Positions 6,614 to 17,130 of a stretch of DNA of 64,000 nucleotides are shown piece by piece. The stretch comes from Rhizomicrobium electricum. Its GTDB lineage: Bacteria; Pseudomonadota; Alphaproteobacteria; Micropepsales; Micropepsaceae. The notes beneath the pieces were generated by a model, which made no database searches, was not told the origin of the DNA, and saw only the letters and a list, made by a program, of their open reading frames with translations. A program made the position numbers and the translations under genes. Positions within the stretch are counted from its first letter, which is position 1. Every line of letters starts with the position of its first letter. Location of the stretch: positions 211,868 to 275,867 of the forward strand of contig NZ_JAASQS010000001.1 in the NCBI RefSeq assembly GCF_011762045.1, read 5' to 3'.

Positions 6614-6698
6614 GCGCGTTTTACGCGTGATCTGAGTTAATCCGCGCTCTTGTTCGCCGATGATTTTTGGGTCCATGTACCTTCGTAAGAGGTACACC

Positions 6699-7466
6699 AT
6701 GACCAATCCCGTCTGGACCCAACACTTCGACGTCAACACCATCGTTCTCGATCATCAAAAGCAGCTCAGCTTGGTCGGATTGCTGAACCTGCTGCAGGAC
6801 ACCGCCTGGATCCACGCCGAACAACTCGGCTGGGGTTACGACGCGCTGGTCGAGAAAGGCACCATCTGGGTGCTGTCGCGCCAGAAGGTGGTGATGAAGG
6901 AATGGCCGATGTGGCAGGACAAGGTGACCATCCGCACCTGGCCGCGCCGCTCGGGCGCCCTGATGGCGCTGCGCGAATTCGAAATCGTCGCGGAGAACAA
7001 GAGCGGCGAAACGCGACGCATCGGCGAATGCTCGACCAGCTGGCTGGTGCTCGACTGGAACACGCGCAAGGTCCAGAAGCTCGACAAGATCATGTTCGGC
7101 GTCCCCTCGCTCAGCGAAGGCGTGCTCGATATCTCTGCCGAACGCGTGCCGCCGCGCAGCGATCTTGGCGAGATCGCACGCTTCGAAGTGCGCAACAGCG
7201 ATCTCGACGTCAACGGCCACGTCAACAACACCCGCTACGCCCAATGGGTGACCGACACGCTGTCGCTCGACGAAATGAAACGTTACGCCATCGACGAATA
7301 CGAAGTGAATTTCCTCGCCGAGACGCTGGTCGGCGACACGGTCGTGATCGAAAGCGAGACCGGCACGCCGGACGCCGACGGCACGCTCCTGCGCCACTAC
7401 CAGGGCCGCAAGACGACCGAAGAAAAGCCCGCCTTCACCGCCCGCCTGAAGCTGCGGCCGCGCTAA
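6699..7466 (+). CDS. Acyl-ACP thioesterase
   Basis: 255 residues with two hot-dog domains, the acyl-ACP thioesterase family (FatA/FatB-like). The first domain has LVGLLNLLQDTAWIHAEQLGWG; the second has the active-site region FEVRNSDLDVNGHVNNTRYAQW, where the Asn/His of the NGHVNN motif are expected to be catalytic. The enzyme releases fatty acids from acyl carrier protein in the cytosol. ATG 6699 is preferred over an upstream in-frame ATG because AGAGGT lies six bases before it. Its stop codon overlaps the stop of the convergent protease gene (shared CTAA). Confidence 0.85.
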   Translation: MTNPVWTQHFDVNTIVLDHQKQLSLVGLLNLLQDTAWIHAEQLGWGYDALVEKGTIWVLSRQKVVMKEWPMWQDKVTIRTWPRRSGALMALREFEIVAENKSGETRRIGECSTSWLVLDWNTRKVQKLDKIMFGVPSLSEGVLDISAERVPPRSDLGEIARFEVRNSDLDVNGHVNNTRYAQWVTDTLSLDEMKRYAIDEYEVNFLAETLVGDTVVIESETGTPDADGTLLRHYQGRKTTEEKPAFTARLKLRPR

Positions 7467-8368
7467 TACTGGGTGGCGGGCGTCACGTAGAGCAATTGGT
7501 GCTTGAAATCGATGTAGAGATGCAGGCGCCGTAGCACGCCCATCCCCACGATCATGTTTCTATCCCAACGGCCGCCGCCCAAAACGGCGGCTTCACGGCC
7601 AGGCACAAGCTCGATCGCCGGGTTGGAAACACTGACGTCTCCAAACGACAGGGTCTTGAACGGATAGTGGCGCGACCGATCGAGCGCCTTCTTGTCGAGA
7701 TCGAAGACCTTCGCTGCCCGTTCCAGACTCATGACGCTGTCGGCTGCGCCGGTATCCAGGATGGCGTTGATGTCTTCGCCATCGAGCTTCATCTTCACCA
7801 CGATATGGTTGCGACCGACCACGAACGGCACGACCCCATAATGGGATGAGGTCCAGTAGGTTTTGTATTCACAATCGTTCGGCGCAATCAGTTTCAGCGA
7901 GGCGTTGGCGAAATCGAGTTCGAGATCGAAATTTCTGAGAACGTCCGTTCCCAACAGACCGGCGGAATCGAAATCATCGCTCCTGACGAAAAGCGGGACA
8001 TCGCGGCCCTTCATCTCGCCGATCGCGAACTCCGAAATCGTCACTTGCTGGTCGTCGAACCTTCCACCAAAGCGTTTCATTCCGGCGCCATACGGCGCAG
8101 CCTTCGTCTTCAAGCCCAACGCCTCGACGGTCTGGTGGGCAATCATCGTTTGCGCCGCCCCGGTATCCAGCATGATCCGCTGCGGCGTGCCGTTGAGTGC
8201 AATCGGCACGGTGATACGGCCCGTGTTGTCCATCTCCATATCGAGAGCCGCATACAAATGAAGTTTGCACACCGACGGCGGCACCGCAGACGGTGCCGGG
8301 TCGGCCGCGACGGCCGCAACGGTCGCCATCATTGCCAGAGCCAAGCAACCGGCCGTACGTTTGAGCAT
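7463..8368 (-). CDS. Exported two-domain retropepsin-like aspartyl protease, cassette copy A
   Basis: 301 residues with a signal peptide ending near VAAVAADPA. Two retropepsin-like halves each carry a catalytic motif: LDTGAAQTM (Asp68) and LDTGAADSVM (Asp205). Each half also has the later hydrophobic-Gly element (AGLLGTDVL; MIVGMGVLRRL). Single-domain retropepsins must pair; two halves in one chain suggest a pepsin-like one-chain active site. It ends in YVTPATQY, identical in the two paralogues at 9327 and 11224. It lies five bases downstream of its helical-repeat partner. The periplasmic substrate is unknown. It is the most diverged of the three copies (no GWGG in the first half, KRFGG instead). 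Confidence 0.8.
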   Translation of the reverse strand: MLKRTAGCLALAMMATVAAVAADPAPSAVPPSVCKLHLYAALDMEMDNTGRITVPIALNGTPQRIMLDTGAAQTMIAHQTVEALGLKTKAAPYGAGMKRFGGRFDDQQVTISEFAIGEMKGRDVPLFVRSDDFDSAGLLGTDVLRNFDLELDFANASLKLIAPNDCEYKTYWTSSHYGVVPFVVGRNHIVVKMKLDGEDINAILDTGAADSVMSLERAAKVFDLDKKALDRSRHYPFKTLSFGDVSVSNPAIELVPGREAAVLGGGRWDRNMIVGMGVLRRLHLYIDFKHQLLYVTPATQY

Positions 8369-8373
8369 CTCGT

Positions 8374-9231
8374 CTACTCCTTCGTGACCGGAACGCCGAG
8401 CCGCTTTAATTCCGCTTTGGCGGCGTCATATTCGATGAAGCCGAGCGGACAACTGCGCATGGCTTCAAGCAGCAGCGGCGTCGCCTGGGGCGTATCGTTC
8501 CGCCCAAGATGCCATTCTGCGATGTAGAAATCGGCTTCGCAGCGCCGGTCCTTGGCTACTCGCACCCGCAAGCTCTCGGCGTCGCTCTCGACGCTCGCCG
8601 GCGTGGCGTGTCCGAGATAGAGATCGACCAACGGCTTCGGCCAGCCGCTGTCGATGGCAGCAAGACCGGCCGCGATCTCGGCTGCATCGAGCTTTCCCGC
8701 ACGATGGGCGACCATGGCCTGCCAAAGCAGCACATAAGGCGCGAGGTCGGAATCCTTTTCGTACTTCTTGAAGGCTTCACGGCTGCTCGCTACGGCCTCG
8801 TCATAGAGGCCATAGCGCCACTCCAGCCGCGCGAATTTCCACCAATCGTGGGCCGATATTTTGCCCTTGGCGAGGCTGTCGAGTTCCTTGCGTGCGCCGG
8901 CAGTATCGGAGAGGCAAAGATTCACCCATAGGCGCAAACGGATCGCGGGCCGGTCGCCGGTTTTCAAGCCGTCGTGGGTATCGAGGTCCTGCTTGGCCTT
9001 GTCGCATTGATCGAGATTGAGATAGGCCTCGGCCCGGCCGCGATAGGCTGCCGATTTGTAGGCCGGCACCAGATCGGGCGCCGCCAGCGCGACGGTAAAC
9101 GCCGTCACGGCGGCCGCGTAGTCCTCGCGCAGATTCGCGGTCATCCCGCTGGTGAAATCGTCATAGCCGGCCGCGAATGCCGTGCCGCTCGCGGCCAGCA
9201 GTGCGGCGAACGCCGCCCCCATTCCCTTCAC
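8374..9231 (-). CDS. Exported TPR-like helical-repeat protein, cassette copy A
   Basis: 285 residues. GTG 9231 is chosen as start because GGGGGAG lies six bases upstream and the signal peptide then begins VKGMGAAFAALLA. After the signal come GYDDF and a series of amphipathic helix pairs of TPR size (for example DYAAAVTAFTVALAAPDLVPAYKSAAYRG is spaced like one repeat). A CEADFYIAEWH motif and a final GFIEYDAAKAELKRLG are shared with the paralogues at 10202 and 12096. No known enzyme motif is visible. Always placed directly upstream of an aspartyl protease gene, it may be an adaptor, chaperone or inhibitor for it; this is inference. Confidence 0.65.
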   Translation of the reverse strand: MKGMGAAFAALLAASGTAFAAGYDDFTSGMTANLREDYAAAVTAFTVALAAPDLVPAYKSAAYRGRAEAYLNLDQCDKAKQDLDTHDGLKTGDRPAIRLRLWVNLCLSDTAGARKELDSLAKGKISAHDWWKFARLEWRYGLYDEAVASSREAFKKYEKDSDLAPYVLLWQAMVAHRAGKLDAAEIAAGLAAIDSGWPKPLVDLYLGHATPASVESDAESLRVRVAKDRRCEADFYIAEWHLGRNDTPQATPLLLEAMRSCPLGFIEYDAAKAELKRLGVPVTKE

Positions 9232-9249
9232 GAACAACTCCCCCCAGCC

Positions 9250-9326
9250 CGCAAGTCGCAACTCTAGGGGGAGATTTGGCCGGATGGCAATGCGACGTCT
9301 ACTTCGCTTCCACCGGGGCTGCCGCC
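9250..9326. pseudogene. Duplicated fragment with decayed 3' end of the UPF0182 gene
   Basis: The stretch CTCTAGGGGGAG-nn-TTGGCCGGATnGCAATG...CGTCTACTTCGCT repeats the DNA found at about 12998-13043, where the CTA is the stop codon of the UPF0182 gene (read on the minus strand). Here the copied stop and the last few codons are followed at once by the end of the next protease gene. It is a leftover of tandem duplication of the whole cassette. Confidence 0.75.
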
Positions 9327-10205
9327 CTAATACTGCGTCGCGGGCGTGACGTAGATCATCTCTTCCTTGTAGCTGATATAGAGATGGAGGCGGCGCAGGA
9401 TGCCCATGCCGAGCAGCAACCGCGGTCCGCCCCAGTTCAGCATCTTGCTCTTCTTTTCCGAGACCAGCGTGATGTCGGGATTGCTTACCGAGACGGAGCC
9501 GAACGACATCGTCTTGAAGGGATAATGCCCTTTGTGCTCGGTCAGGCTCTTCTCGTCGATGTCGAAAAGGTCTTCAGCCTTTTCCAGGCTCATCACCGTA
9601 TCGGACGCGCCGGTATCGAGGACGGCCCTGACTTCCTTGCCGTCGATCTGAACCGTCAACTGGATGCTGCGATCCTTGTAATCGAAGGGCACCAGACCGA
9701 CATCACCTTTGGTCCAATACAAAACCTTGCCCTTGCAGTGGTTGGGCGAGATGAGGTTGAGCGTCGCTTTGGCGAAGTCGAAATCGAGATCGAAATAGTA
9801 GAGGAAATCCGCTCCCAGCAGCCCGTCGAACGTTGCGGTATCGGTATTCATCACCATGAACTGGGTGCGCTCGCGCGCCAGCCGCCCGAACCCGAACTGG
9901 TCGAGATTGACAAAGTGATCGATCACCGCCCCGCCCCAGCCCCTGAGCTCGAAATTGCCGGATCGCTCCATTTTGACGCCGAGAATCTTGGCGGTGCGAT
10001 CGGTGACGACGGAATAATAGTCGCCTGTATCGACAAGCAGACGGAACGGCGTGTGGTTCAGCGTAACCGGCACCGTCATCACGCCGGCGGGTTCGATGTC
10101 CATCGGCAGTTTCGAGACGATCACCAGGTCACAATCTTCAGCAGCCTGCGCCGCAGCGCCGGTCGCAAGCAGCGAGACAATCGCAAGGGCCGTTCGGCGG
10201 ATCAT
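9327..10205 (-). CDS. Exported two-domain retropepsin-like aspartyl protease, cassette copy B
   Basis: 292 residues with signal peptide (RRTALAIVSLLATGAAAQA). The two active-site motifs are VDTGDYYSVV (Asp59) and LDTGASDTVM (Asp197); an LRGWGG element lies in the first half, and GMGILRRLHLYISYKEE and YVTPATQY close the protein. ATG 10205 is used because it overlaps the stop of the upstream helical-repeat gene (ATGA) and a GGAGG site precedes it; a longer open frame upstream only reads through that gene. It resembles copy C more than copy A. Likely periplasmic; target unknown. Confidence 0.8.
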   Translation of the reverse strand: MIRRTALAIVSLLATGAAAQAAEDCDLVIVSKLPMDIEPAGVMTVPVTLNHTPFRLLVDTGDYYSVVTDRTAKILGVKMERSGNFELRGWGGAVIDHFVNLDQFGFGRLARERTQFMVMNTDTATFDGLLGADFLYYFDLDFDFAKATLNLISPNHCKGKVLYWTKGDVGLVPFDYKDRSIQLTVQIDGKEVRAVLDTGASDTVMSLEKAEDLFDIDEKSLTEHKGHYPFKTMSFGSVSVSNPDITLVSEKKSKMLNWGGPRLLLGMGILRRLHLYISYKEEMIYVTPATQY

Positions 10206-11071
10206 TTCGCGCCCTCCTTCATACCCAGGCGTTCCGCCTCGGCCTTGGCACCGTAAAGCTCGATGAAGCCCGCCGGACAGCCGGACAGCGCCGATCCGAT
10301 CAAAGGCTTGGCCGCCGCCGCATCGCCGCGCGCGACTTGCCATTCCGCCAGATAGAAGTCGGCTTCGCATTTCTGGCCGGGGATGGCGTCGCTGTCGCCG
10401 CGGGCCGCCTTGGCAACGACTTCTTCGACCTTGCGCTTGCCGAGATAGAAGTCGAGCAGCGGCCTGGGCCAATCGCTGCTGTCGAGAAAATCGACCAGCG
10501 TCTCCAGCTTGGTGCGATCGAGAGAACCAATGCGATCCGCCGTGATCGCGTACCACAGCACCAGATAGCGGGCGTGCGGCGTCCGGTCCTTGTCCGCCAC
10601 CATCGCATCGACCGCCTTGTCGAGAACGCTGCGGGCGCCCCGGAAATCGCCGTACTGCCATTGCATCCGTGCAAAGGCGAAGGCGCGGTCATGGCTGAGG
10701 ATCGGACCGTTGCCCGCCTCAAAATCCTGCTGGGCTCCGGCAAAGTCTTTGAGACACAGCTTGATGTCTGCGCGCAGGTAATAGCCGGAGCGGTCCAGCG
10801 GCCGGACGGCGACGGACGCATTCAGATCCGTCAACGCGTCGCTGCAGCGGCTTTTCTCCCGATAGGCTGCCGCCCGGCCCTGATGGGCCGCAACGACATA
10901 GGCCGGAACCAGATCGCCGGCCGCCAGTGCCGCCGTGAATCCCTTGATCGCACCATCCGGATCGTCCCGGATGTTTGCCGTCACCGCCTGAGCAAAATCG
11001 TCGTAACTCGTAGCCCCCGCGCCGCCGGCACACAGTGCGAATGTCACTGCGGCCATCACTCCACGCTTCAC
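10202..11071 (-). CDS. Exported TPR-like helical-repeat protein, cassette copy B
   Basis: 289 residues, GTG start after GGGGGGAG with six-base spacing, and a signal peptide ending around GAGATS. It shows the same layout as its paralogues: SYDDF after the signal, about five helix pairs, CEADFYLAEWQ near residue 230, and GFIELYGAKAEAERLG at the end. It overlaps the protease gene by four bases, so the pair is coupled in translation. Helical-repeat nature is inferred from residue pattern; no domain was confirmed by search. Confidence 0.65.
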   Translation of the reverse strand: MKRGVMAAVTFALCAGGAGATSYDDFAQAVTANIRDDPDGAIKGFTAALAAGDLVPAYVVAAHQGRAAAYREKSRCSDALTDLNASVAVRPLDRSGYYLRADIKLCLKDFAGAQQDFEAGNGPILSHDRAFAFARMQWQYGDFRGARSVLDKAVDAMVADKDRTPHARYLVLWYAITADRIGSLDRTKLETLVDFLDSSDWPRPLLDFYLGKRKVEEVVAKAARGDSDAIPGQKCEADFYLAEWQVARGDAAAAKPLIGSALSGCPAGFIELYGAKAEAERLGMKEGAK

Positions 11072-11120
11072 GGCAATCTCCCCCCGAAGCCCGCGGGAAG
11101 ATCATATCGTCATGCACGCC

Positions 11121-11223
11121 GGACTAGCAATCTCCCGGCGCGCTACATTGCTGCCGTGGGGTTCGCCTTGTTCTAGTCCCTATGATGGCGAGCCAGCGCC
11201 AAAGCGGCCTCCCGGGTGCCGCC
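11121..11223. pseudogene. Second duplicated fragment of the UPF0182 3' end
   Basis: GCCGGACTAGCAAT at 11119-11132 and GCTACATTGCTGCCGTGGGG followed by TTCGCCTTGTTC (about 11142-11173) align with 13015-13065, the downstream flank and last dozen codons of the UPF0182 gene, with scattered substitutions. The likeness is lost soon after TTGTTC, and the last 50 bases before the protease stop show nothing recognisable. It marks the second cassette junction. Confidence 0.75.
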
Positions 11224-12099
11224 CTAATACTGCGTTGCGGGCGTGACGTAGAGCGTCTCTTCCTTGTAACTGATGTAGAGGTGGAGACGGCGCATGATAT
11301 CCATACCGAGGATCATCTGAGGCCCTGCACCGCCCATAGATTTGCTGTGCTTGTCCGAAACGAGCTTGATCTGAGGATTGTTCACGGTAACGGCTCCAAA
11401 GGACATTGTCTTGAACTTGTCCTTCGACCAGCCTTCGACCGGTTTGCTTCCTCCGAACAAGCCGTTTGCTTCTTCCAGACTCATAACCGTTACGTTCGAT
11501 CCCGTGTCGAGAACGGCGTTGACCGGTTTGCCGTCGAGCATGATCCTCAGGTTGATGTCGTGGTGCTGATACTTGAACGGAACCTTGCCATAGGCGCCTT
11601 GCGTCCAGTAGACGGCCTTGCCTTCGCAACGATCCGGAGAAATAAGATTCAGTTGGGCCTTGGCGAAATCGAAATCGAGGTCGAAATAATAGAGATAGTC
11701 CGCCCCGATCACACCGTCGATGGTTTCCGGCAAACTGTACGCAACCATCAAGTTGGTTCTGTCGCGTCCCATCCGGCCAATAGAGAACTGCTTGGCCTCG
11801 ATGAAAAACGAAGTCATCCATCCACCCCAACCGATCAGAACAAGATCGAGCGTCGGTTGTATCTTCGACTTGAGTGCATCCGCGGTGTAGCCGGAAACGA
11901 TAGTCGCATAAGCGCCGGTATCGATGATCATCTTGAACGGTCGGCGATCCACCAGAACCGGGACCCGAACCAATCCGTCGTCACCCAGGTCCATCCGGAA
12001 TGCAGACTTGATCGTCAACGAACAATCCGGGCTTTCCGCGTGAACCGGAGCGGCAACCACTGCTGCCAGCGCCGCAGACAACACCATCCGCCGCATCAT
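11224..12099 (-). CDS. Exported two-domain retropepsin-like aspartyl protease, cassette copy C
   Basis: 291 residues with a short signal peptide ending near VHAES. Catalytic motifs are IDTGAYATIV (Asp60) and LDTGSNVTVM (Asp198). LIGWGGW lies in the first half; ILGMDIMRRLHLYISYKEE and YVTPATQY end the chain. ATG 12099 overlaps the helical-repeat stop (ATGA). This cassette is nearest to the UPF0182 gene, whose 3' end was carried into the other junctions, so it probably holds the original position. Confidence 0.8.
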   Translation of the reverse strand: MMRRMVLSAALAAVVAAPVHAESPDCSLTIKSAFRMDLGDDGLVRVPVLVDRRPFKMIIDTGAYATIVSGYTADALKSKIQPTLDLVLIGWGGWMTSFFIEAKQFSIGRMGRDRTNLMVAYSLPETIDGVIGADYLYYFDLDFDFAKAQLNLISPDRCEGKAVYWTQGAYGKVPFKYQHHDINLRIMLDGKPVNAVLDTGSNVTVMSLEEANGLFGGSKPVEGWSKDKFKTMSFGAVTVNNPQIKLVSDKHSKSMGGAGPQMILGMDIMRRLHLYISYKEETLYVTPATQY

Positions 12100-12965
12100 T
12101 GGTCGTCATCCTTATCGGCAACTTCGGGCAACCCGAGCCGGGCTGCCTCCGCCTTGGCTGCCGAATATTCGATAAAGCCTTTCGGACATTTCGCCACTGC
12201 GTCGGCGATCAGCGGCTTTGCGGCATCACCATTGCCATGCGCTATGTGCCATTCGGCGATGTAGAAATGGGCTTCACAGGTCTGACCGGCAGACTTGGCG
12301 CCCCACGTCACGGGGCGAACCTGCTCCGGCTTGATTTTGCCGAGATACAGATCCATCAGCGGTCCCGGCCAATCCTCCCGCGCCGCAGTCGCAGCATAAG
12401 CAGCGAGTTTTTCCCGGTCGAGACGACCAAGGCGAGCCTCCGTCATGGCGTACCAAAGCAGGGCATAGCTGTCGCTTTGGTCCTTGTTGTTCTGCGAAAT
12501 CTCCAGCAACGTCTGAAAGCTGCTGCTGGCTTCCTGAAATACACCCTCTCGCCACAGAAGCATGCCTAGCTCCTTGTAGGGATAGACGTCGGACGCATTC
12601 GTTTTCATCGCCTCGTAGTCCCGACGCACCCCCGCAAAGTCCTTCGCACAGAGATTGGCGGCAGCGTGCAGCCGACGGACCGACCGGTCCGATGGGATCA
12701 GCGCAATAGCTGCATCGGCATCCGCCAACGCCTGCTGACAGTTTTTCTCGGCCAGCCAGATACGCGTACGAACGCGATAGATCGTGGTCTTGTAGGCTGG
12801 GGCCAAATCCGGAGCCGCCAACGCGCCCGTCAACGCAGCAATCGCCGCGTCATGATCCCCGCGCACTGCCGCCGCCATGCCTTTAGAAAAATCATCGTAG
12901 CCGCTAGCAACGGCGGCACTCGCGGAAGCCGCCAATATGATGGCGACCGCAATCATACGCTTCAC
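12096..12965 (-). CDS. Exported TPR-like helical-repeat protein, cassette copy C
   Basis: 289 residues from GTG 12965, which follows GGGGGGAG; this gives the same length as copy B. The signal peptide is VKRMIAVAIILAASASAAVA, then GYDDF. CEAHFYIAEWH and GFIEYSAAKAEAARLG match the paralogues. The start lies 69 bases after the UPF0182 stop in the same direction, so readthrough from that gene is possible; the upstream flank also contains the CTCTAGGGGGAG block that is repeated before copy A. Confidence 0.65.
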   Translation of the reverse strand: MKRMIAVAIILAASASAAVASGYDDFSKGMAAAVRGDHDAAIAALTGALAAPDLAPAYKTTIYRVRTRIWLAEKNCQQALADADAAIALIPSDRSVRRLHAAANLCAKDFAGVRRDYEAMKTNASDVYPYKELGMLLWREGVFQEASSSFQTLLEISQNNKDQSDSYALLWYAMTEARLGRLDREKLAAYAATAAREDWPGPLMDLYLGKIKPEQVRPVTWGAKSAGQTCEAHFYIAEWHIAHGNGDAAKPLIADAVAKCPKGFIEYSAAKAEAARLGLPEVADKDDDQ

Positions 12966-13034
12966 GCCAACTCCCCCCTCGAAGCCCGCGAGTCGCACTC
13001 TAGGGGGAGCCTTGGCCGGATAGCAATGTGGCGT

Positions 13035-15827
13035 CTACTTCGCTGCCGCGGGCTTCGCCTTGTTCAAATCCTCAAGCAGCGGCTTCATGGCATCGAGTTC
13101 GGCGCCGAAGCCGGCCCAGTCGCCAGCCTTCAACTTGGCGATGGCTTTGTTGTAGTGCTCGAGCGCGGCTTTGGCAGAGCCGGCCGGCACGGCGGCCAGA
13201 ACCGCTCCCGCCGCGGCTTGCGCCGGCCCGGTCTCGGCCGCAGACGGAGGACGGTCGATATCGAGCGAGCCTTCGGGGGCCCGGAACAGCTTGGCGAGCG
13301 TCTGCCCCAGCGTCTCCTCCATCACAACCTTATTGTTGTAGACGGCGATGACCCGCTTCAATTCGGGCAGCTGCCCCGACGCGGCGCGCAGGTACAGCGG
13401 CATGACGTAAAGCACCGAATTGTCGATCGGCACCACCAGAAGATTGCCGTGGATGACGCGGCTGCCCGACTGGTTCCACAGCGTGATCTGCTGCGACACC
13501 TCGGTGTTCTGGCTGATGAGCGCGTTGATCTGGAACGGGCCGTAGATCAGCTTGTCCTTCGGGAACGTGTAGACGATCAGCTTGCCGTAATGCTCGGGAT
13601 CGCAGCGCGCGGCGAGCCACGCGATCATGTTCTCCTTCTGGCGCGGCACCATCGGCAGCATCAGCACGAACTCGGTGTCCTTCGCCCCCGGCAGCCGCAT
13701 ATTGATGAAATACGGCTCCATCTTGGATTCCCCGGTGTCGTCGTCGGCCGAGGGTTTCCGGGGGAACTGCCACTGGTCTTCGCGGCTGAAGAACACTTCC
13801 GGCGAATCCATGTGGTAGGAGGCATACATCTGCGCCTGGACGGCGAAGAAATCCTCGGGATAGCGGATGTGGCGCTTCAGATCGGAGGGCATCGCCGCGA
13901 GCGGCTGGAACAGACCCGGATAGATGCGGGCATAGGTCTTGACCAGCGGATCGCGCGCGTCGGCGAGATAGTACGTCACCGTGCCTTCATAGGCGTCGAC
14001 CACCACCTTGACCGAGTTGCGGACGTAATTGCCCATGCCGCTGTCGGCCGGCTTCGAATAGGGGAAGACATCCGACGTCGTGTAGGCGTCCTGCATCCAA
14101 TAGAGCTTGCCGCCCGACACGACGATGTAGGGATCGTGGTCGAGTGTCAGGAACGGCGCAATCTCGGTGATGCGCTGCTGGATATTGCGGCGGAAGACCA
14201 GACGGCTTTCCGGCGTCACGTATTTCGACAAGAGAATGTTGATGTCGCCGAAATACCAGGAGAACAGAAGCCGGTTGCCGAGACCGCCGATCGCAACGCC
14301 GTCACGCCCCCTGTAGGCGGCATAGACGTTGTTGTCGCCCTTGGGATAATCGAATTCCGGCGTCGAGCTCTTCACGAGGATATAGTTGTCGGTAGCTTCG
14401 CCGAAATAGATACGCGGCTCGGTGATCTTGGGGCCGCCGTCCGAAACCGGCGGAATATCCTTCACGTACAATGCCGGCAGGCCGCCGACCTCGGTCTTGG
14501 TCACCGGGCTCATCACCACGCCGTTGCCGTGGGTGTAGAGCACATGCAGGTTGACCCAGGTTTGGGCGCTCTGCGGCAACTGGCTGGAATCGAACTCGCG
14601 TGCCGTGGTCATCACCTGCTGGTACTTGCCGTCCAGCATGTAGCGGTCGACGTCGGCATCGCTGAATTTGTAGTAGGTGCGGATTTCCTGAAGCTGGGAA
14701 TAACTCGCGAGCAGCGGCTTGACGTCCCAAAGCCGGATGTTGTCGATCGTCGGCCGGTTTGCGGAGATAGCCGCGGCGGTCAAATTCTCGTCGGCGACGA
14801 ACGGCTTTTCCTGGATATTGTTGAGGCCGTAAGCCTCGCGCGTCATCGCGATGTTCCGCGCGATATAGGGCGCCTCGAACTGAAGCTGGTTCGGCTTGAC
14901 GTAAACGCGCTCGTAAAGCCCGGTCATCAGGGGAGCCACCACGACCGATACCGCCATCAGCGCGACCGCCACCAGAGCGGGGTTCTTGAGCGAGTGGCCG
15001 CGGAGATTGGCGAACGATACCACCGCACCGGCGATGGCCAGGATCGTCAGCGCCCACAGGATCGGAATCTGCAGGTGCACGTCGGTATAGCTGGCGCCGA
15101 CCACGGCGCCGTTGTCGCCGTAGACCACCTGAAAGCGCTGCAGCCAGTAGTCCCCAGCCTTGACCAGGAGCCAGGCCCCGAGCAGCACCGAGCCGTGCGC
15201 CACCGCGACCGGCGCGATGTAGCGGCGCTGCTGATCGAACAGGATTGCCCCGTGCACCCAGTACAGCACCGCCGCCATGATGCCGCCGACGGTGATGGTG
15301 AAAAGCAGCCAGTTCTTGAGCGCGACATAAGCGGGCAGCGAGAACAGGTAGAAGCCGATGTCCATCCCGAACAGCGGATCGGTCTGACCGTAGGGCACCT
15401 GATAGATGTAACGCAGCGCCACGCTCCAGTTGCCGAGTTCGGAGGCGGCGATCAGAAGCGCCACGACCAGCGAGACCACGACTATCAGGATGCGCCACGG
15501 GAACGACCGGTACAGCCGCTCCAGCAAAACCGGCGGCGTCAACCCTTCGATCGAATTCCACGGCGAGGACACCGCGTGCAAGTTCGGCCGGAACCCGGAG
15601 AGGCGCTGCGCGATCGCGGCGTTGGCATAGAGGATCGCCGCCGTCGGCACGAACGCCGCCAGGAAAACCACGATCTTGGCGTTCACGGTCGTCCAGAACA
15701 CGCCGGCAAAGCCCAGCGAGGCGAACCAGGCCCAATCCACCAGGAAACTGGCGGCAAGGCGCAAGAGGATGAGCGCGAGGAAGATCGCGCCGACGACGAT
15801 CGCAAGGATTCGGTTTCTGGGGGTCAC
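13035..15827 (-). CDS. UPF0182 family large membrane protein
   Basis: About 930 residues from GTG 15827 (AGGACC just upstream; an earlier in-frame start is poor). The N-terminal third has about seven membrane segments (for example ILAIVVGAIFLALILL, WLLFTITVGGIMAAVLYW). The remaining 600 residues are soluble, probably outside the cytosol, with Ala/Lys-rich end KPAAAK. Order and motifs (DWAWFASLGFAGVFWT, YIARNIAMTREAYGL, YTHGNGVVMSP, YFGEATDNYILV) match UPF0182/COG1615, a conserved family of unknown function. It is co-directional with the three protease cassettes. Confidence 0.9.
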   Translation of the reverse strand: MTPRNRILAIVVGAIFLALILLRLAASFLVDWAWFASLGFAGVFWTTVNAKIVVFLAAFVPTAAILYANAAIAQRLSGFRPNLHAVSSPWNSIEGLTPPVLLERLYRSFPWRILIVVVSLVVALLIAASELGNWSVALRYIYQVPYGQTDPLFGMDIGFYLFSLPAYVALKNWLLFTITVGGIMAAVLYWVHGAILFDQQRRYIAPVAVAHGSVLLGAWLLVKAGDYWLQRFQVVYGDNGAVVGASYTDVHLQIPILWALTILAIAGAVVSFANLRGHSLKNPALVAVALMAVSVVVAPLMTGLYERVYVKPNQLQFEAPYIARNIAMTREAYGLNNIQEKPFVADENLTAAAISANRPTIDNIRLWDVKPLLASYSQLQEIRTYYKFSDADVDRYMLDGKYQQVMTTAREFDSSQLPQSAQTWVNLHVLYTHGNGVVMSPVTKTEVGGLPALYVKDIPPVSDGGPKITEPRIYFGEATDNYILVKSSTPEFDYPKGDNNVYAAYRGRDGVAIGGLGNRLLFSWYFGDINILLSKYVTPESRLVFRRNIQQRITEIAPFLTLDHDPYIVVSGGKLYWMQDAYTTSDVFPYSKPADSGMGNYVRNSVKVVVDAYEGTVTYYLADARDPLVKTYARIYPGLFQPLAAMPSDLKRHIRYPEDFFAVQAQMYASYHMDSPEVFFSREDQWQFPRKPSADDDTGESKMEPYFINMRLPGAKDTEFVLMLPMVPRQKENMIAWLAARCDPEHYGKLIVYTFPKDKLIYGPFQINALISQNTEVSQQITLWNQSGSRVIHGNLLVVPIDNSVLYVMPLYLRAASGQLPELKRVIAVYNNKVVMEETLGQTLAKLFRAPEGSLDIDRPPSAAETGPAQAAAGAVLAAVPAGSAKAALEHYNKAIAKLKAGDWAGFGAELDAMKPLLEDLNKAKPAAAK

Positions 15828-15918
15828 GGTGGTCCTGCCTGAGAATCGCGGACGTGGGAACGGCGCAAAGTACACCGCGGGCGGGAACCGGGGCAAGCGA
15901 AGCCGGCCGCGCGCCCCG

Positions 15919-17130
15919 CTATGCCGCTTCCGAATCTTTCAGAAGTTTCACCTTGGGCAGGTGCTTCAACGGTCCGGCATCGCCAACGGCCGGCACCACG
16001 GATGATCCCCACAACCAGCGCACCCCGCGGGCAAGACAGGATTGCAGCGCCGCCGAAGAATCGACGTGGTCGGCAAATGATACCAACCCCGAGCGACGGG
16101 TCTCGGACATCAGCGCTGCGACCTCGGTTTCGCAGGCCGACGGCGAAAGTCCTCTGAGCGAGACCCCCAGCGCCTTGATACCGGCATTGCGGAATGCAGG
16201 CAGCGACACCGCGGCCGGACGCGGCGCGCGCGCCAGTACCGCCCCGCAGAACGTCTGCAAGATCGTAACGACCTCGGCGACGCGCGATTGCGGAATGCCG
16301 GACGGAAGGTCCTTGATCTCGTAGGCGAGATAGGGCCGCAAGGCGGCGTCCAGCAAGCGGCAGCCGGCCAGGAACTGCATGCGCACCATCGGCACGGACA
16401 GGATCACGGCCGATACCGGGACGGTCAGGATGTAGCGTTCGCCGCGGGCGAGATGGCGCTGCAGATCGCGCGTGCCGCGCCGCACCAGGTCCAGCGTTAT
16501 CGCGGTGATGGCGCGAAGGCGTTCCGGAGAACTCTCCGGGCCATGGCTTTGCCAGCCGTTCGCAGGCTGACAGCGATAGGCGCGGATGACCTGCACTTCG
16601 GCATCCCAGACCGGCTGATAGAGGATCTCGAATTCGCCGGGCTGCGGCAGGGCGGCTTCGCAGAGTCCGTTGGCTTGCGACGGTGCGAGTTCCAGACCGG
16701 CCTTACCCGTCAGCGCCGTCAGCTCGTCGGGCTCGAACGCCTCCACCTCGATGATGCTGTCGCCGATCGCCTCTGCGGGCGCGACCGTCAAATTGTCGAG
16801 AGCACAGGTGCCGAGCAGGCCTTTGGTCAAGTCGTAAGCGATGCGCACGCAGATGACCTCGCCGTCGGCCCGCGCCGCCGCGGGCATGATGACGAGGCGG
16901 TTCATGTCGTCGAGCGGCAGGAAACAATCGGCCGGCCCAAGCTGCTCGCGCAGCAACTGGTCGAGACGGGCGGCTGCGATATCGCGCAGCTTCGGCCACC
17001 GTTCGCCGACCGCCTTGCGGATGCCGTCGAGGCTGATGACCGTGGCGCTGCCGCCGCCCTTCACCAAGCGGGCAGACGAAGTGACCCAGCTAGCGCTGCG
17101 GTCGACGGGTTCGGTGGTTTCGACGCGCAT
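15919..17130 (-). CDS. Cytosolic protein with degenerate EAL-like domain
   Basis: 403 residues, no membrane segment. An EAL-like region starts at about residue 170 (FEILYQPVWDAEVQVIRAYRC): the YQP start of EAL domains is recognisable, but the EAL/ExLxR signature is replaced by RAYR, so cyclic-di-GMP hydrolysis is unlikely. Later segments (IPQSRVAEVVTIL; GIKALGVSLRG; LVSFADHVDS) follow the strand order of an EAL barrel. The first 150 residues could be a decayed GGDEF-like or sensory part, but no GGDEF motif is seen. It may bind nucleotide or protein without catalysis. Family assignment is tentative. Confidence 0.5.
   Translation of the reverse strand: MRVETTEPVDRSASWVTSSARLVKGGGSATVISLDGIRKAVGERWPKLRDIAAARLDQLLREQLGPADCFLPLDDMNRLVIMPAAARADGEVICVRIAYDLTKGLLGTCALDNLTVAPAEAIGDSIIEVEAFEPDELTALTGKAGLELAPSQANGLCEAALPQPGEFEILYQPVWDAEVQVIRAYRCQPANGWQSHGPESSPERLRAITAITLDLVRRGTRDLQRHLARGERYILTVPVSAVILSVPMVRMQFLAGCRLLDAALRPYLAYEIKDLPSGIPQSRVAEVVTILQTFCGAVLARAPRPAAVSLPAFRNAGIKALGVSLRGLSPSACETEVAALMSETRRSGLVSFADHVDSSAALQSCLARGVRWLWGSSVVPAVGDAGPLKHLPKVKLLKDSEAA

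Follow-up and report, generated by a model that had tools for sequence, protein, structure and literature searches.

Tandem cassettes of an NlpI-like TPR protein and a bilobed aspartyl protease in Rhizomicrobium electricum: a candidate adaptor–protease system of the cell envelope

The Locus

The window considered here is a stretch of 64,000 nucleotides from Rhizomicrobium electricum. Between positions 7463 and 12965 its minus strand carries three tandem cassettes, transcribed in the order C, B, A, and in each of them one gene codes for an exported TPR protein and the other for an exported protease whose two lobes both have an intact DTG. The TPR gene is situated 5' of the protease gene in all three. 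The two genes overlap by 4 nt (ATGA) in cassettes B and C and are separated by a 5-nt gap in A. The array and its flanking genes are as follows.

13035..15896, minus strand: UPF0182 membrane-protein gene
12966..13034, minus strand: leader of cassette C, immediately behind the UPF0182 stop codon; copies precede A and, in part, B
12096..12965, minus strand: TPR gene of cassette C; exported NlpI-like protein, 289 aa
11224..12099, minus strand: protease gene of cassette C; exported bilobed aspartyl protease, 291 aa; DTGA/DTGS; 4-nt overlap with the TPR gene
11143..11179, minus strand: leader of cassette B; matches the UPF0182 3' end (13035-13071) at 84% identity
10202..11071, minus strand: TPR gene of cassette B; exported NlpI-like protein, 289 aa
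9327..10205, minus strand: protease gene of cassette B; exported bilobed aspartyl protease, 292 aa; DTGD/DTGA; 4-nt overlap with the TPR gene
9261..9316, minus strand: leader of cassette A; 86% identical to 12997-13052, a match that takes in the final UPF0182 codons and a promoter-like site
8374..9231, minus strand: TPR gene of cassette A; exported NlpI-like protein, 285 aa, GTG start
7463..8368, minus strand: protease gene of cassette A, set 5 nt apart from the TPR gene; its 301-aa product is an exported clan-AA aspartyl protease with two lobes, each bearing DTGA
6660..7466, plus strand: acyl-ACP thioesterase gene, convergent with the array

All six open reading frames are present at these coordinates on the minus strand, and both partners have signal-like N termini. 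The sequence-only reading had described three tandem pairs of an exported TPR protein and an exported two-domain aspartyl protease, coupled by overlap or by five bases, and this description is confirmed in its coordinates, signals and DTG lobes. Protein identity among the copies is 41-52%. A fourth TPR–protease pair, unlinked to the array, is encoded in the same genome (contig C10:129078-130702). Upstream of the UPF0182 gene lies an ORF of 403 aa (15919-17130, minus strand), which gave no match in a Pfam search and is kept at the same place in L107.

The Proteases

PF13975/PF13650 matches are found in both lobes of proteases A, B, and C, and an alignment of 22 family proteases shows no variation in either DTG motif. 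The hydrophobic-hydrophobic-Gly element that follows DTG is present in lobe 2 of nearly all 22 and in both lobes of the window copies. The window proteases thus show, lobe by lobe, the features of clan AA retropepsin-like enzymes (DTG plus hydrophobic-hydrophobic-Gly, with PF13975/PF13650). Because the Pfam matches cover both halves and the DTG pair is invariant, these proteins are expected to be active, single-chain, pepsin-like enzymes made of two retropepsin lobes.

By sequence, the best solved relative of the protease is 9iy9, a putative endopeptidase from Bacteroides fragilis (E 6.5e-11), which is also the top match of a structure model of a fused TPR–protease pair (L115, described below). 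Structure comparison of the same model indicates that the bilobed protease fold resembles that of pepsins. Both 9iy9 and bacterial pepsins such as shewasin (PMC4814920) are clan AA aspartyl proteases like those of the window; the window proteases differ from bacterial pepsins in that no copy matches the pepsin A1 profile (PF00026, Pfam Asp). The literature search found no text on 9iy9. We know of no TPR partner for 9iy9 or for bacterial pepsins such as shewasin.

The RloA retropepsins of Pseudomonas aeruginosa (PMC12239564) are likewise exported, bacterial and of the retropepsin type, occur in several copies per genome and are linked to envelope stress. However, they are single-lobe homodimers of the RimB family, one of which is encoded in an operon with RloB and RloC, and no TPR partner is described there. 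The marks of RloA/RimB proteins (single lobe, RimB-type sequence, rlo/rim operon) are not found in the window: its proteases have two lobes per chain, and the flanks hold the UPF0182 and acyl-ACP thioesterase genes, without ATP-grasp or transglutaminase genes.

The TPR Partner and Its Kinship with NlpI

TPR proteins A, B, and C score weakly against the Pfam TPR models. All 21 aligned TPR partners match the NCBIfam NlpI model, under its equivalog cut-off; the window proteins score 36-46 bits against the 250 bits set for NF008391. A profile of the TPR family spans residues 41-273 of the 276 of NlpI in one stretch (E 1e-23). A profile of the non-TPR C-terminal tail alone, searched against 177,635 PDB sequences, has NlpI as its sole match (E 1.3e-6; the next is at 0.95), and this search rules out a generic TPR repeat protein. 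When a single window TPR protein (P0006) is the query, the best PDB match is again NlpI (5e-8), mostly through the C-terminal half. The AlphaFold2 model of TPR B (pLDDT 94, pTM 0.88) has NlpI chains as all of its 12 best matches in the PDB, with TM scores of 0.57-0.61. The TPR partner is thus homologous to NlpI of E. coli, which serves the protease Prc as adaptor, across both the TPRs and the non-TPR C-terminal domain.

The cassettes resemble the NlpI–Prc system of E. coli (PMC5686067, PMC11211486) in their TPR protein, which is helical, periplasmic and ~290 residues long and shares the non-TPR C-terminal domain of NlpI, and in its link to an envelope protease. On the other hand, the window protease is a bilobed aspartyl enzyme whereas Prc is a PDZ serine protease, and the cassette genes are adjacent and often duplicated. 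The TPR protein also differs from NlpI in lacking a lipobox and three of the four acidic residues that dock Prc. No lipobox was found in the three window copies or in the TPR protein of the fourth pair, and it is lacking in 20 of the 21 aligned members, the one pattern match (L047) falling inside the signal stretch. The Prc-docking residues of NlpI in TPR2b (D113, E117, D120, E124) align to A/Q/E/G in B, A/K/D/K in A, and A/R/E/T in C, leaving just one acidic position of four in each copy. With these residues replaced, the partner protease, if it is bound, would be bound differently from Prc. Having no lipid anchor and lacking most of the docking patch, the window TPR protein is not NlpI in the strict sense.

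Two motifs had been taken as private to the cassettes. YVTPATQY is indeed the specific one, and is seen in the clade of the window locus. CEA[DH]FY[IL]AEW, in contrast, is a wider signature of the C-terminal tail domain, common to NlpI and to unpaired TPR proteins of other bacteria. The tail of the cassette TPR proteins also contains a conserved Cys pair that E. coli NlpI lacks.

Pairing within the Genus and Beyond

A survey of the genus, in which 69 genomes/species were searched with both profiles and the neighbourhoods were then fetched, revealed 30 TPR–protease pairs in 24 of the 69 genomes, with up to four pairs per genome. Once contig-end fragments are set aside, a protease gene directly adjoins 30 of 35 complete TPR homologues on the same strand (G019:C416 included). 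The five unpaired homologues (L129, L130, L144, L145, G023/L034) are among the more divergent, and a few further half-pairs lie at contig ends (L021, L146, L175-L177). In G028 and G029 the order is reversed, with the protease first, and the pair is kept. Distances in the TPR and protease trees are correlated (r = 0.76, 29 pairs), a value reached in 0 of 10,000 permutations. The match between the trees argues that the two genes have been inherited and duplicated together. Such congruence speaks of co-inheritance and not of binding, since linked genes can show it even if their products never meet.

The proteases present a different picture. Among 99 sampled protease ORFs, which do not include the three of the window, 26 have a TPR neighbour, 33 are in tandem protease arrays and 40 are solo (four of these at contig ends). 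Most of the 73 without a TPR neighbour belong to a separate clade, and none of the 50 members of one supported clade (SH-aLRT 98) has a TPR gene next to it, so the TPR partnership is confined to one part of a larger protease expansion. The count of neighbours by which the sequence-only reading proposed to judge its paired system therefore splits: TPR homologues are mostly paired, proteases mostly are not.

These distributions bear on the possibility that the TPR protein is an inhibitor, a prodomain-like chaperone or an immunity protein, keeping the protease folded or silent until it is needed. Such a role would suit a TPR gene that is translated first and coupled to the protease gene, and pairs that are specific and co-diverging. 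It is nevertheless very unlikely: close relatives of the protease exist without a TPR gene, one of them in the same genome (C11, L135), so that neither folding nor safety needs a neighbouring TPR gene; the gene order is reversed in G028/G029; and homology to NlpI favours recruitment or activation over inhibition (PMC5686067). Among the roles that had been proposed from the sequence, that of adaptor is favoured over that of inhibitor, because the TPR protein is homologous to a known protease adaptor.

Among 385 genomes of the class, 14 have the protease family and 23 have the NlpI-like tail, and both occur together only in the window's own genome; three other members of the genus within this sample have proteases only. 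A scan for the tail motif in 84,980 species recovered loci that are paired in alphaproteobacterial MAGs and unpaired in Rhizobiales, among other groups. Pairing seems to be confined to the genus. Literature searches found no account of NlpI with a retropepsin or an aspartic protease, nor of a retropepsin-like protein with a tetratricopeptide protein, and no prior description of the pair was found in the literature searched. The paired system of an NlpI-like TPR protein and an aspartyl protease is real and conserved, and apparently restricted to the genus. A bilobed retropepsin and a C-terminal TPR domain are joined in one ORF in the genus (L165:2504-3988) and in another family (L219:1141-2988, L220:59-1882). 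The TPR domains of these fusions are without the NlpI tail, implying that protease and TPR modules have probably been combined more than once.

Duplication History of the Array

The segments at 9261-9316 and 11143-11179, before A and B, are decayed copies of the UPF0182 3' end and mark tandem duplication. Their presence shows that the duplicated unit started inside the UPF0182 end and carried its own leader. The cassette leaders are better conserved than the coding bodies, and hence may be under selection.

In G033, the same locus, flanked by the UPF0182 and thioesterase genes, holds a B-type cassette only. In G019, an A-type TPR gene follows the same UPF0182 gene, and an A-type protease is situated at a contig start, beside the Hsp20 region that follows in the window. 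The A, B, and C proteases of the window form one clade with their G033 and G019 relatives in a tree of 102 protease rows (SH-aLRT 98). Together, these observations suggest that the locus shows the birth and loss of old cassettes. A recent duplication error is ruled out by the 41-52% identity and by the A- and B-type cassettes that stand alone in related species; the earlier view of the array as specialised pairs is upheld by these lone cassettes, by the adjacency in 30 of 35 cases and by the congruent trees. Between copy B and its G033 relative, dN/dS is 0.23 for the TPR gene and 0.13 for the protease gene, indicating purifying selection. Their dS, at 0.87-0.96, exceeds the 0.34-0.38 of the flanking genes more than twofold, so the two cassettes may be older paralogues, and their orthology is uncertain.

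The duplication footprints of the UPF0182 3' end before A and B could also be taken to mean that the neighbourhood is incidental, the product of a local duplication in a single lineage, with the genes functionally uncoupled. The probability of this is next to negligible. It is contradicted by the conserved pairing, with pairs at many unlinked loci in 24 genomes and beside 30 of 35 complete TPR homologues, and by purifying selection on both genes.

A Putative Adaptor for an Envelope Protease

From the homology to NlpI, the gene position and the co-inheritance, we infer that the TPR partner physically binds the protease and acts as its adaptor. The endopeptidase MepS of E. coli is recruited to Prc by NlpI, which promotes its degradation (PMC5686067). 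In P. aeruginosa, the TPR adaptor LbcA activates the envelope protease CtpA and recruits its substrates (PMC8764530), although LbcA is a larger lipoprotein with 11 TPRs and no sequence similarity to NlpI, and CtpA is a CTP-family serine protease whereas the window protease is an aspartyl enzyme. By analogy with NlpI–Prc and LbcA–CtpA, the TPR protein is probably a dedicated soluble adaptor, as substrate recruiter and/or activator, for a pepsin-like envelope protease. The cassette would then form a two-component envelope proteolysis system, its first gene supplying a soluble periplasmic NlpI-homologous TPR protein and its second a pepsin-like single-chain aspartyl protease of two retropepsin lobes. 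Like NlpI with Prc and LbcA with CtpA, the TPR protein would recruit substrates to the protease translated next or would activate that protease. Duplication of the whole cassette would have given rise to up to four pairs per genome, probably serving different envelope substrates; that these are peptidoglycan enzymes can be guessed from the analogy.

Besides its work as adaptor, NlpI is a scaffold for peptidoglycan hydrolases (PMC7049810), and homology to NlpI is therefore not proof of a protease-adaptor role. The two partners might serve the same process independently, the TPR protein scaffolding peptidoglycan enzymes, as NlpI does with several hydrolases (PMC7049810), and the protease cleaving other targets, with the operon providing co-regulation only. 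A natural in-frame pair (L115) was folded as one chain, with the intervening TGA read as a residue. Both domains are confident, but their relative placement is not (pTM 0.63) and shows no confident interface; with just two alignment rows paired, this is a weak test. This result and the unpaired majority of the protease family are compatible with independent action. We regard it as unlikely, since the pair outlasts duplication, relocation and reversal of order with matched divergence, and similar modules are fused in other proteins.

As a putative adaptor with its envelope protease, the cassette is of a kind already known and not categorically new. The chances are about even that it represents a third, independently evolved system of this kind, in which an NlpI-family TPR protein was re-coupled to a pepsin-like aspartyl protease and multiplied into parallel, substrate-specific pairs per genome. 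Of the TPR adaptors of envelope proteases, two are considered here, NlpI and LbcA, and each works with a CTP serine protease. If the adaptor role is correct, an NlpI-family protein working with an aspartyl protease would mean that the adaptor fold can be carried over from one protease class to another, unrelated one. It would also supply a testable partner and function for the bilobed bacterial retropepsins, which are abundant in the genomes of the genus and almost unstudied. The parallel pairs per genome would offer a natural experiment on how adaptor–protease specificity diverges after duplication.

Related Proteases without an Adjoining TPR Gene or an Intact DTG Pair

The solo bilobed protease of the same genome (G000:C11:50003-50905; L135, L007) is closely related to the TPR-paired clade, has no adjoining TPR gene and starts with a twin-arginine-like signal, SRRTFLGTG. 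Tandem arrays of 3-5 bilobed proteases without TPR genes are present in related genomes (L174, L198, L190, L189, L134), and at least one member of the L174 array is split over two frames or by a stop. A second protease is encoded behind a TPR–protease pair at L113:5872-6738 (also L137), in which DTR and DTS replace the two DTGs; this suggests an inactive paralogue.
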